Shown here piece after piece: positions 18,970 through 64,000 of a DNA stretch of 64,000 bases; the stretch's first letter is position 1; every line of letters starts with the position of its first letter. A model generated the notes under the pieces. It ran no database searches and had not been told where the DNA came from. It saw only the letters and a program-made list of their open reading frames with translations. The DNA comes from Hyaloraphidium curvatum (taxonomy: Eukaryota; Monoblepharomycota; Hyaloraphidiomycetes; Hyaloraphidiales; Hyaloraphidiaceae), in the NCBI GenBank assembly GCA_025558095.1, contig JAIVFI010000022.1:248001-312000 (forward strand). Reading direction: 5' to 3'. A program made the translations under genes and the position numbers.

Positions 18970-19998
18970 CTACCCGATCCACCCCCTCCCCCTGCCCTTG
19001 CCCTCGGCACCCCGTGGGCGAAGCAAGCCCGCGTGGTCGGTGCCCTGCAGGAACCCATAGATCGGCGCGCGCGGGGGCTCGAAGAACGGCGGGGGGTCGG
19101 TGGGTGTTGTCGGGGGTGAGGGGAAGGGGGAGTGCCCCGGGGGAGGGGGGGAGAGGCGGTCCTCCGACGAGGAGACCGAGGCGGAATCGGAGGCGGGGTA
19201 GGCTGATGATGGGGCGGGGAGGCGGAAGGCGGGAGTGGGGGCGGTGGGCGCCGAGGAGGGCAGGTGCGGGGGGGATGCCGACGCGGGGCGGCGGGCAATG
19301 TCCGGGACGAGGGGGGCGGCGGCGGGCAGGTCGCACGCGCGGAGGTGCAGCGCGGCGGTGAGCCGGTCGAGGCCGAGCAGGGAGAGGATCTCGTCGTAGG
19401 GGATGGACCAGCTTGGCTGCTGGGGGGCGGGTGGAGGGGAAGGGGCGGTGGTGGCTTCCGGGACGGGGTCGTCGGGGCCGTCGACGGCGATGTCCAGCGC
19501 GTCCAGCGCATCCAGCGCCCCCGCCACGACGTCCGCGTCGTGCATGTCCGCGTCCGTCTCGCCGGAGTTGGCTGCCAGGGGGTTGAGCGACACGCGCACG
19601 GTCAGCGGGCACGGCGGCGGCTCCTCCTCGCACAGCACGACCGACGGCGTGTGCTCGTGCTCGAAGAGGTGGTCGTACGGGTCGTCCGGCACGTCTGGCG
19701 GCAGCGACGCCGAGTGCGCGGCGTCGAAGTGCGCGCACAGCTCGTGCAGCGAGGCGAGGGCCACGCCGCAGCACGCGTAGGCGGCGGGCAGCTCGGCGGC
19801 GTCGTCGTCCGCGCAGGAAATGTCGACGTCGGGCGCCGGCAGCAGCGGCGTGCCGGGCGGCGCGGGCAGCGGCGAGGAGGTGCCCCACCGCGCGCCCGCG
19901 GCCACGTCATCGCGCGGCGGGCCGCCGGGCGGGTCCGCCGCCGGCTGCGGGCCGCCGGTCCGCTCCAAGGCGATGCCGCGCTCGGCCGCGGCCGCCAT
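18970..19998 (-). CDS. SFP1-like C2H2 zinc-finger protein
   Basis: Start at ATG 19998, 342 residues, no intron required. One zinc finger is clear near residues 73-96: ACCGVALASLHELCAHFDAAH, with the CCG...H-x4-H spacing typical of the fungal SFP1 family, whose founding yeast member controls ribosome-protein genes and cell size. The rest is Pro/Ser/Ala-rich and acidic (GETDADMHDADVVAG), as expected of a transcription factor activation region. A second finger, if present, is not visible; yeast SFP1 has a split C-terminal pair. Function is inferred from the finger alone. Confidence 0.6.
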   Translation of the reverse strand: MAAAAERGIALERTGGPQPAADPPGGPPRDDVAAGARWGTSSPLPAPPGTPLLPAPDVDISCADDDAAELPAAYACCGVALASLHELCAHFDAAHSASLPPDVPDDPYDHLFEHEHTPSVVLCEEEPPPCPLTVRVSLNPLAANSGETDADMHDADVVAGALDALDALDIAVDGPDDPVPEATTAPSPPPAPQQPSWSIPYDEILSLLGLDRLTAALHLRACDLPAAAPLVPDIARRPASASPPHLPSSAPTAPTPAFRLPAPSSAYPASDSASVSSSEDRLSPPPPGHSPFPSPPTTPTDPPPFFEPPRAPIYGFLQGTDHAGLLRPRGAEGKGRGRGWIG

Positions 19999-31459: not shown

Positions 31460-31572
31460 AAGCGCCAGGCGGAGGGGAGATACCGTTGATACCAATGCCG
31501 CTTTATTCCGGCCTCGTTCGATCCATTAGATGACTCTTTCGTTCGGCAGCCTCGCCGCTGCGCGCGGCGCTG

Positions 31573-31652
31573 CCGGTCCCCGCGAGACGGAGGTCAGGAA
31601 CCCGCCAAGAAAGCTTTGCGGCGGGCCCGTCATGTGCCTCTGCGGGGTCCGG
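31573..31652 (-). promoter_or_regulatory. SECIS element in the 3' UTR of the selenoprotein H gene
   Basis: On the minus strand, 41 nt after the stop at 31693. Helix I: CCGGACCCCGC (31652-31642) pairs with GCGGGGACCGG (31583-31573), ten pairs and one A-A mismatch. The quartet is ATGA (31633-31630) against TGAC (31596-31593), supplying the tandem G-A pairs. Helix II: GGGCCCGCC pairs with GGCGGG plus TCC, nine pairs with one bulged T. The apical loop carries AAA (31617-31615), 12 nt after ATGA. All eukaryotic SECIS landmarks are present at the usual spacing. Confidence 0.88.
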
Positions 31653-31692
31653 GGCACCGCGGCGCGGCGGGCGCCCGTCCGCCCGGCGCCGA

Positions 31693-32290
31693 TCAGGCAG
31701 CCTTGCGGACCATGTCGACGAGGGCGTCGAGGTCCGGGAACTTGTCGGAGCGCGGGGGCCCTGTGCGGCACGTATGAGCTCCAGTCGGCCGGGACGTTCG
31801 TCGGACGCACCCTTGGTGAGACCGTCCCACACCTCGACCTCCTTGTCCCCGCTCCTGACGATGAAGTTGAACGCGCCCCTGCGGGGCTTGCCGTCCGCGA
31901 GCTGCGCCTTGAAGCCGGCGGCCTTGAGGGCCTCCAGAGCCTTGTTGGCGCGGCCCCGGTACGTGCCTCAGCTATTGCTGGATTCGAGGCGTGCGTGAGA
32001 GGGGGACGGCGTGCCTCGCCCAATCGAGCGACGCACCACCGCTCGAGGATCACCTCGACGCCGGCGGATTTCGCGGGCACGGGCTTCTCCTCCTTAACTT
32101 CGGGTTCGTCCTTGACGTCCTCTTCTTTCTTGGCCTTGCCCTTCTTGGCGGGCTCCTTCTTCTCGGCTTTGGGCGCGGCCTCGGTCTTGGGCGCGGCGGC
32201 CTTCCTGCCGCGTTTGGCGGGGGCCTCCTCGGCCGGCGGTGCATCGGCAGCCGCCTCGGCTTCCGCCGCGGCCTTGCGCTTGGGCGCCAT
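31693..32290 (-). CDS. SELENOH: Selenoprotein H with in-frame TGA (selenocysteine)
   Basis: Exons 32037-32290, 31811-31977 and 31693-31760 (introns 59 and 50 nt) give 162 residues including selenocysteine at position 88, encoded by TGA at 31970-31968. The N-terminus is Lys/Ala-rich with an AT-hook-like KRGRK. The first splice creates VEVILERCNSUGTYRGRA, the CxxU redox motif of the SelH/Rdx thioredoxin-like fold; it continues with GKPRRGAFNFIV, EVEVWDGLTKGPPRSDKFP, all SelH landmarks. SelH is a nuclear or nucleolar redox protein. The second splice restores KGPPR. A SECIS follows in the 3' UTR. Reading TGA as stop would leave 87 residues without the fold. Transcribed convergently with the HhH gene. 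Confidence 0.9.
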
Positions 32291-52736: not shown

Positions 52737-53732
52737 CTAGAACTTTACGACCTTCTTCTTGCCCTTTGCGGATCCGTTTGCCGCTTTCGGCCCATCCTGC
52801 TTGGGCGCTTTCTTCGCGGCCTTTGGAACCTCCTCCACCTCGTCAGCGAGCTCCACGCGGTCGCCATCGTCCGCCTTCGGGAGCTTGCTCTTCGTCCGCT
52901 CGGGGCACTTGGTCGCGAAATGGCGGTTGGACCCGCAGAAGCGACACCCGCCGCCCTTCGGGAAGAAGCCGTGTTCGTTCTGGGGGCAAGCCCCCGCGAT
53001 GTGCCCCATCTCCGAGCACACGCCGCAGATGGCGTACGGGAAGGGCCGCTCCGGATCCGCGGGCTCCTTGCACGCCTTGACGGTGTGGTCGTCCGCTCCG
53101 CACCGCCAGCACCGTCCAGCAGCAGCCGTCGAGCCCTTGTCCAGCTTCGGGCATTCCTTGACTGAGTGTCCGTTGTCGCGGCAGTAGAAACAGACCAGCT
53201 TCAGCTTCTTGAGCTTCTCCCGACGCTTCTTCTTGGCCGCAGCGCTCCTCGGCGGCCGCTTGGCCTGGTCCTTTGATCCTCCGGAGCCCGCAGCGTCCCC
53301 GTCCTCCGCTCCTTCGGCACCTTTCCGGTGCCGAATGCGCTTCTTCTTCGGCCCCTTGTCCAAGTGCTTTGCATCCTCGGCTGGAACCACGTCATCCTCG
53401 CCGTGTTTCCGCTTCTTGGAGGCCTTCGCTTCGGCAGCGTTCGAAGCGGGATCCTCGGCGGGCGCCTTCTCCTTCCGCTTCTTGGAAGATTTCGGTTCCG
53501 CAACACTGGAAGCAGGACCAGCGGTCGACAAAGCTTCCGGCTCCTTGTCTTTGCGCTTCTTGGCGGGTTTCGGTTCCGCAGATGTGGGGACGGTCGATGC
53601 CGGGGAGCTTGCAGTGGGCTCCGTGGAGTGGCCCTCTGCGCCCTCGGACGGTTTGACCTTCTTCTTCTTTGGCTTCTGAACAGTTTCCATAGCCGGACCG
53701 CCTGGAGTGGCGGCCCCGGAGTGCTTGGCCAT
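52737..53732 (-). CDS. ZCCHC9-like CCHC zinc-knuckle protein
   Basis: Start at ATG 53732, 331 residues, no intron. The N-terminal half is Lys-rich with repeated KKRK clusters, likely nuclear or nucleolar localisation signals. Four CCHC knuckles follow: CFYCRDNGHSVKEC, CWRCGADDHTVKAC, CGVCSEMGHIAGAC and CRFCGSNRHFATKC. Their order and the linker ACPQNEHGFFPKGGG match ZCCHC9, a nucleolar RNA-binding protein tied to ribosomal RNA processing. The C-terminus is Lys/Ala-rich. Convergent with the MFS gene (about 80 bp). Confidence 0.85.
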   Translation of the reverse strand: MAKHSGAATPGGPAMETVQKPKKKKVKPSEGAEGHSTEPTASSPASTVPTSAEPKPAKKRKDKEPEALSTAGPASSVAEPKSSKKRKEKAPAEDPASNAAEAKASKKRKHGEDDVVPAEDAKHLDKGPKKKRIRHRKGAEGAEDGDAAGSGGSKDQAKRPPRSAAAKKKRREKLKKLKLVCFYCRDNGHSVKECPKLDKGSTAAAGRCWRCGADDHTVKACKEPADPERPFPYAICGVCSEMGHIAGACPQNEHGFFPKGGGCRFCGSNRHFATKCPERTKSKLPKADDGDRVELADEVEEVPKAAKKAPKQDGPKAANGSAKGKKKVVKF

Positions 53733-53900
53733 CGTTCTTGTGGGGTTGTTGATTTTCAAACCTTGGCGGCAGGGTGCGAAATTCCGATCAGATCCACAAC
53801 CACCACACTCGGAACCGGACTGTCTCGCTCCCTGTAACTCAGGGCTAAGGCGTACTACGCAGCTTGGCAGACGTTCCTCCCTTTCCTTCCCATCGCACAA

Positions 53901-54453
53901 ATGGCTGGCACTCTCGAGGTCTCTGAGGCGGCGACCGTGTACGCGGCGCTGATCCTCCACGACGCGGAGCTGGAGATCACGGTGAGGCCCTCGCGGCCGT
54001 GGGCCCTTGGCGGGCGTGGGGAGGACAGCGGGGCTGATTGCGGACCCGTGGCGGACGCGATGGAATAGGCGGACAAGATCCAGGCCCTCATCGACGCTGC
54101 CGGCGTCGAGGTCGACTCTGCCTACCCCAAGGTCTTCGCGAAGGCCCTGGCTGGCAAGGACCTGAGCCAGCTCCTTGGTGCCATCGCCGTCGGTGGGTTT
54201 TCTGCCGCGCGTGCCGGTCGTCGTATAGCTCATCCTCGAGCAGCCGCCCCCTCGGCTGGTGCCGCTCCCGCGGCCGCCGCCGCTCCTTCGGGAGGTGCTG
54301 CCGCTGCCGCGGAGGCACCCGCAGCCAAGAAGGAGGAGAAGAAGGAGGAGGAGGAGGAGGAGGGCGACGAGGGTGCGTTCCGTCGGCTGCGTTTCGTCGG
54401 GTTGGACCTCATCTCCCTTTCCTGCAGACATGGGCTTCGGTCTCTTCGACTAA
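53901..54453 (+). CDS. RPP1: 60S acidic ribosomal protein P1
   Basis: Exons 53901-53981, 54069-54192, 54244-54372 and 54428-54453 give 119 residues. N-terminus [20 protein letters not shown] and then [20 protein letters not shown] fit P1 rather than P2. An Ala-rich hinge and an acidic run lead to the invariant MGFGLFD end, which the last 26-nt exon supplies. P1/P2 dimers form the ribosomal stalk and recruit translational GTPases. It is divergent from the ZCCHC9 gene with 168 bp between starts. Confidence 0.95.
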
Positions 54454-62586: not shown

Positions 62587-62961
62587 GGCGGCGGTCGGAG
62601 GAGGAGGTGGTGGACGGAGGCGGCGCTACAGTACTGAATTACAAAGATGAGCGGGAGCTTCAACTCGCCACCCCACACACAATTTTAATGCTATGGATTT
62701 GCCGTTTCGTGAGCTACAAGATGTAGGCAGCGCCCTGCTTTTCCGGGATTTTTGGCCCTTATCTGTGGTGGGAAGCGTTTCGGCGTGGGGCGCCAAGTTG
62801 AAGTTAGATTCGGGGTTAAAGAAATTTAACCACAGCTAAGGCCTGAAAATCGGCCAGGATCCAGTTCTCCTAACAAATAGTCTAACCCGTGGGGTCCCGG
62901 GCCTTCGCTCACGCGTGCCCGGCCCCAAATCGGCCGCAATTGGAGGCACTCCACCGCCGCG
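62587..62961. other. 375-bp divergent intergenic region
   Basis: This stretch before the transposase-like gene is richer in A/T than the rest of the window (for example 62680-62900). It may include the left end of the mobile element, but without the other end no terminal inverted repeat can be checked. V-ATPase B promoter elements should also be here. Confidence 0.45.
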
Positions 62962-64000
62962 ATGGCCGAAGGTCGCGGCTGGATAGCTGCCGCCGTGGCC
63001 GGCGGGATCGTTTTGGCCGTCTTCGTGGTGCTCTTTGGCATGGTCGCCGGTGTCGGCCGTGGTCGGGATGGCCGCGGAAGGTTCTCCCTGGGGGACACCT
63101 CGACGAGCACCACGACCGCCCTCCGCCAATCACCGGTCACGAAACGGCGCAAGACCGCTGATGGGCTTGCACTGGAAGATGGAGCAGCTTTTGTTGAGCA
63201 GCGGCGCGCTCGAGCCGCGGAGAACACCCCCGGCGGGGAGAACGAGGCCGAGGGCCGCGGGACGCGACGTGCGGCATCCCAGCTCAATGTGGACGGCTAC
63301 AAGGACGTTTCTGGCTCTGGAGAGCGTCTGTGCACCCACTGTAAGGAGAAAGGACATTACATCACGACGTGCCCAAAACGGCAGAGGTGCAGACAGTGCC
63401 AGGGCAAAGGCCACGCGAAGAACTACTGTCCCGAGCTGTACCCCGGTCTTCTCAGGTTCGGGAGGCTTCTGACCGTCGAGGAGAATATCAGAATGCTCGG
63501 CATCCCCGAAGTGCTAAACAGGAAGCCCGGAGAACCGCTGTCATACGACCTCCGGAAAGCATACCTCCGGATTCTATACCACCAGAAGGCCATGGGAGTC
63601 GGTGATCCAGTCAAAAAGGTTGCGCAGATGGTTGGGGCCTCGGAAGGGACCATCAGGCAGCTGTACAACGAGTTTGAAAGGAGCGGCAAGGTGGCCTTGT
63701 GGGCGGACCGCAGATCTGATCGAACCTTCAACACGACGACGGAATGGAACGCATTTGTCATCGACTACGTCAGCAAACAGCACAGGGCAATGTGCCGTGT
63801 CCGTACCAAGAAGCTACAGAAGGAAATGGTGCGGGAATTCAACCGATTCTTCAGTCTTCGATACGTGCGTGCCCTCTGCAAGCGCCTGGGCTTCGGATAC
63901 AAGGAGATTGGAGGCCACAAGATCGTTGTCATGACTCCAAACATCCATGTGCGGCGGTATGAGTACCTGCGAGAGCGGTACCGGATTCGCAAAGCGGAGA
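62962..64000 (+). CDS. Transposase-like protein: TM segment, two CCHC knuckles, HTH (3' truncated by window)
   Basis: The frame opens at ATG 62962 and is still open at 64000 (346 codons). Residues 7-31 are a hydrophobic segment (AAAVAGGIVLAVFVVLFGMV). Two CCHC knuckles are at about 117-145: CTHCKEKGHYITTC and CRQCQGKGHAKNYC. A winged-helix/HTH follows (VKKVAQMVGASEGTIRQLYN, then SGKVALWADRRSDRTFN), and a second helical block (TKKLQKEMVREF, VRALCKRLGFGYKEI, YEYLRERYRIRKAE) matches Tc1/mariner (IS630) transposases, just before the expected DDE domain. The DDE catalytic residues are outside the window. Probably a DNA transposon or a domesticated copy. The TM segment is odd. Confidence 0.7.
   Translation, partial: MAEGRGWIAAAVAGGIVLAVFVVLFGMVAGVGRGRDGRGRFSLGDTSTSTTTALRQSPVTKRRKTADGLALEDGAAFVEQRRARAAENTPGGENEAEGRGTRRAASQLNVDGYKDVSGSGERLCTHCKEKGHYITTCPKRQRCRQCQGKGHAKNYCPELYPGLLRFGRLLTVEENIRMLGIPEVLNRKPGEPLSYDLRKAYLRILYHQKAMGVGDPVKKVAQMVGASEGTIRQLYNEFERSGKVALWADRRSDRTFNTTTEWNAFVIDYVSKQHRAMCRVRTKKLQKEMVREFNRFFSLRYVRALCKRLGFGYKEIGGHKIVVMTPNIHVRRYEYLRERYRIRKAE
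62962..64000 (+). mobile_element. Candidate Tc1/mariner-like element, left part
   Basis: The host element of the transposase-like ORF. Only its 5' part is in the window, so boundaries, inverted repeats and target duplication cannot be seen. Confidence 0.4.

Follow-up and report, generated by a model that had tools for sequence, protein, structure and literature searches.

The locus described here is very probably a working selenoprotein H (SelH) gene of a zoosporic, early-branching fungus, with an in-frame UGA as selenocysteine (Sec) codon. It lies on the minus strand of the window, i.e. the whole 64-kb stretch of DNA that was analysed (G+C about 65%), and the genome searched was a 31.9-Mb assembly of 55 contigs, denoted below by C and a number. 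The gene, the position of its UGA, the SECIS element and the genes of the Sec machinery were all read directly from the sequence.

The gene model of SelH was rebuilt, and three exons on the minus strand gave a 489-nt in-frame CDS of 162 residues. The features of the locus were the following:

32037..32290, minus strand: SelH exon 1, start codon at 32290-32288 (rebuilt gene model)
31978..32036, minus strand: SelH intron 1, 59 nt, GT-AG, GTGCGT...TCCAG (neighbouring donors and acceptors were enumerated)
31811..31977, minus strand: SelH exon 2, with the active site CNSUGTY (gene model and BLASTP)
31968..31970, minus strand: SelH Sec codon, the in-frame TGA, codon 88 (gene model and human alignment)
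31761..31810, minus strand: SelH intron 2, 50 nt, GT-AG, GTGCGT...CACAG
31693..31760, minus strand: SelH exon 3, GPPRSDKFPDLDALVDMVRKAA, terminal TGA at 31695-31693
31582..31642, minus strand: SelH SECIS (Rfam SECIS_1, fold and motif scan), AUGA at 31633-31630, AAA 12 nt on, UGAC on the 3′ side
31502..31507, minus strand: AATAAA, likely poly(A) signal, 3′ of the SECIS (read from the sequence)

The CDS contained only one internal TGA (31970-31968), in the context ERCNSUGTYRGRA, and residues 85-88 (CNSU) form the CxxU redox site of SelH. Exon 1 encodes an N-terminal tail rich in Lys and Ala, followed by GVEVILER, while the blocks GKPRRGAFNF, WDGLTKGPPR and VWDGLTKGPPRSDKFPDLDALVDMVRKAA were found downstream of the TGA. 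BLASTP aligned the protein to human SelH with 32 identities over 85 positions (38%, E 4e-16 for the single pair), the human Sec column fell on the TGA and conserved sequence flanked the UGA on both sides. Two profiles, NCBIfam CXXU_selWTH (E 2.7e-5) and Pfam Rdx (E 0.021), were matched over nearly their whole length, both under their curated cut-offs. The sequence-only reading of this DNA had placed an in-frame TGA at residue 88 in a CxxU site, joined the exons at 32037/31977 and noted conserved blocks after the TGA; the rebuilt GT-AG gene model has the same junction, the TGA aligns with the human Sec, and GKPRRGAF and KGPPR were both found and are matched in human SelH. Human SELENOH and Drosophila BthD have in common with this protein the CxxU, KPRRG(A/S)F and GxxKGPPR motifs, a basic N-terminal tail and a SECIS in the 3′ UTR. 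The Ala/Lys-rich tail, however, is about 75 residues long here, longer than in the human protein, and the gene differs from SELENOH (BthD of Drosophila) in its terminal codon, which is UGA.

The SECIS of SelH is located in the 3′ UTR, between the stop codon and the AATAAA at 31507-31502, and in the spliced mRNA its core follows the internal UGA at a distance of 287 nt. Its fold contains helices I and II, the AUGA/UGA core and a loop in which AAA follows AUGA by 12 nt; this is the anatomy claimed earlier (helix I, ATGA/TGAC core, helix II, AAA 12 nt after ATGA). The score against Rfam SECIS_1 was 21.6 bits and falls short of the gathering score of 35 bits. We also ran our own motif scan, independent of the Rfam model, in which the SECIS core, the spacing and both stems were considered, and on both strands of the 64-kb window it returned the SelH SECIS as the sole such element. 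At the scan threshold, simulated Markov-1 sequence gave 0.07 matches per 64 kb, and a score as high as that of the SelH element was reached once in 19.2 Mb of such sequence (this figure refers to the SECIS alone). Elsewhere in the window, two long frames (52740-54449 on the minus strand and 62881-63999 on the plus strand) matched a zinc knuckle and, weakly, HTH_28, and are possibly remnants of mobile elements.

The eukaryotic components dedicated to Sec synthesis and insertion are tRNA-Sec, PSTK, SepSecS, SPS2, EFSec and SBP2. The sequence-only reading had claimed such a machinery for this organism and had regarded its absence from the genome as a refutation; the search was run, and every component named was found in the one assembly. 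Precisely, a tRNA-Sec with UCA anticodon was found at C14:445030-445115 (78.2 bits), SepSecS at C8:364279-366000 (exceeding its family cut-off) and SPS2 at C2:990953-991939, the latter with LKGUGCKV as its Sec site and a SECIS of its own 57 nt past the stop. PSTK, on C2 near 720164, was weak against the family model (E 6.1e-4), but it can be recognised by motifs all along the gene, including DDNMYYSSMR and ETCLERN. EFSec (C1:403963-406400) is split into several exons, and the human query matched it from the N-terminal G domain to the C-terminus, while the RNA-binding domain of SBP2 (C31:198344 onward) had 35% identity to human over 111 residues. The search covered the dedicated steps of the machinery, and a gene was found for each of them. 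EF-family matches on C5, C7, C12, C17, C33 and C46 were rejected as EFSec, being by eye GTPBP-like, eRF3, HBS1, GUF1, mtEFG and mtEF-Tu.

Two further observations concern the same contig as the SBP2 domain. At C31:198344-199646 the open frame of the SBP2 L7Ae domain extends without a break into ankyrin repeats (Ank_2, E 2.2e-14); this is apparently a fusion and perhaps a novel architecture for SBP2, although the frame may hide an intron or a border between two genes. Two similar genes at C31:77548-78204 and 90101-90757, 12.5 kb apart and with 343-aa frames each, exceeded the bacterial ThiL cut-off and may derive from horizontal transfer with duplication. We rejected both of these genes as extra SelD, since they match thiamine-phosphate kinase ThiL.

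We also ran SECIS_1 over the 32 Mb. Among the best five matches, three were just 3′ of unmistakable selenoprotein genes (SelH included) and one was 3′ of a SelW-like candidate. A deiodinase-like selenoprotein (SHSUPPF; Pfam T4_deiodinase, E 1.2e-23) and SelK (GGGGSUGR-stop; Pfam SelK_SelG, E 1.4e-10) each have a SECIS. The SelW-like candidate (C41:17500-25500) has an in-frame TGA, read as U-G-F, and a SECIS at 19439-19496, 24 nt past the stop; its match (E 0.0015) is under the cut-off and it is without a Cys three residues before U. We considered as predicted selenoprotein genes, therefore, at least four solid ones (SelH, SPS2, the deiodinase-like gene and SelK) and one or two weaker candidates. 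This list is incomplete, because the SECIS of SPS2 itself escaped the genome-wide SECIS_1 search. The top SECIS_1 match of the genome (36.2 bits) was at C30:527668-527729, and no recognisable selenoprotein gene was found upstream of it; it may mark a selenoprotein family that is new or divergent, or be a chance match. SPS2, SelK and a deiodinase-like protein also occur together in the selenoproteome of Dictyostelium (SPS2, SelK, Sep15, MSP and deiodinase-like; PMC2375036), whereas SelH, found in the genome analysed here, is not on that list (PMC2375036).

The in-frame TGA could have arisen in other ways. If SelH were of the Cys type here, one changed base (TGT or TGC to TGA) would suffice to produce it, by pseudogene formation or by sequencing error. 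Against this stand the SECIS in the 3′ UTR, a frame that stays open and conserved past the TGA, and the presence in the genome of other UGA genes with SECIS and of the full machinery; we regard this explanation as very improbable. The TGA could also be spliced out, with the true exon 2 beginning further downstream, and local splice-site enumeration did return 43 donor/acceptor pairs that hold the frame without the TGA. However, all the 40 listed of these 43 pairs delete the CxxU and the residues that follow it, the consensus GTGCGT...CAG junction retains the CxxU, and the SECIS would be left unexplained, so that we give this possibility hardly any credit.

We thus return to a SelH in which the UGA is decoded as Sec, whose transcription, Sec insertion, redox role and location we infer as follows. 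The mRNA would carry the UGA at codon 88 and, in its 3′ UTR, a SECIS bound by an SBP2-type L7Ae protein. SBP2 bound there would bring in EFSec together with Sec-tRNA-Sec, and selenocysteine would be inserted at the ribosome in place of termination. Sec would be made on tRNA-Sec via seryl-tRNA synthetase, PSTK and SepSecS, with selenophosphate supplied by SPS2, likewise a predicted selenoprotein. The protein would act as a CxxU oxidoreductase of thioredoxin-like type, with a basic tail at its N-terminus, and its location is probably nuclear, by analogy with animals.

In this genome two selenoprotein genes use UGA both as Sec codon and as stop. The terminal UGA of SelH is 62 nt ahead of the SECIS core, and the deiodinase-like gene, too, has an internal UGA for Sec and a terminal UGA, 61 nt ahead of its core. 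With a terminal UGA so near the core there could be some readthrough of the SelH end, and decoding of this codon would append 20 residues before the next stop. The stop-to-core distance of 62 nt may, on the other hand, be too short for efficient recoding.

As to the organism, it had been called a probable fungus, and the genome supports this. Alpha-aminoadipate reductase (AAR/Lys2) was present in full length at one locus on C23 (746 and 683 bits in two blocks, the whole-protein cut-off being 1030), EF1A carries the opisthokont insertion in what we take to be its fungal form, and the axonemal/flagellar protein PACRG is encoded (8e-41). No chlorophyll-binding or light-harvesting proteins were found in the genome, which led us to reject an alga of high G+C, e.g. 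a pelagophyte. From AAR, the fungal-like EF1A, PACRG and the lack of light-harvesting genes, we consider a zoosporic fungus the most likely identity of the organism. The search of the genome for a rhodopsin-cyclase fusion, a marker of Blastocladiomycota, did not find one and returned an opsin of fungal type, apparently unfused, which does not settle the phylum. Two fragments of adenylation domains (C10:40355-40606 and C51:8533-8784) have the same score and the same frame length, which suggests a duplicated or doubly assembled segment. The parts read of the small contigs C51-C55 contained neither rRNA nor tRNA genes and hence yielded no organelle or rDNA sequence.

The host could instead be another flagellated opisthokont, e.g. 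a holozoan protist, in which Sec use would be unremarkable. Against PDB, yeast was the best match to EF1A (841 bits), with mammals only somewhat behind (825 bits), and a few holozoans, e.g. Corallochytrium, have AAR too. We consider such a host unlikely, given the full-length AAR, the fungal-type EF1A insertion and the fungal-type opsin, and retain the zoosporic fungus.

In the older view, selenocysteine was lost at the base of fungi (PMC2375036). By 2019 nine Sec-using fungi had been listed, according to papers that cite Mariotti et al. 2019 (PMC10386755, PMC7988114, PMC10778597), namely seven Harpellales, Bifiguratus and Gonapodya (PMC10386755, PMC7988114). In these early-branching fungi (PMC10386755, PMC7988114), a complete Sec machinery goes with a small selenoproteome, as it does here. 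A proteome-level survey reporting no fungal Sec missed even the nine species (PMC7988114). Neither selenoprotein H (PMC2375036) nor the use of Sec by early-branching fungi is new in itself. Less expected are the apparent fusion of the SBP2 domain with ankyrin repeats, the deiodinase-like selenoprotein and the two dual-UGA genes. In the literature searched there was no report of a fungal SBP2-ankyrin fusion or deiodinase-like selenoprotein, which is weak evidence, Mariotti et al. 2019 lying outside that search. We suggest only tentatively, and with more doubt than conviction, that this is a fungal lineage new for Sec with a remodelled apparatus (SBP2-ankyrin, a deiodinase-like selenoprotein, and UGA as Sec and as stop, the latter some 60 nt ahead of the SECIS).

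The reading of UGA as selenocysteine has disappeared from nearly all fungi, and selenoprotein genes go missed because ordinary annotation ends at UGA. To our knowledge, Gonapodya is the only flagellated one among the nine Sec-using fungi. Another flagellated fungus with a complete machinery and several selenoproteins would argue that Sec was a trait of early fungi and was then lost repeatedly.
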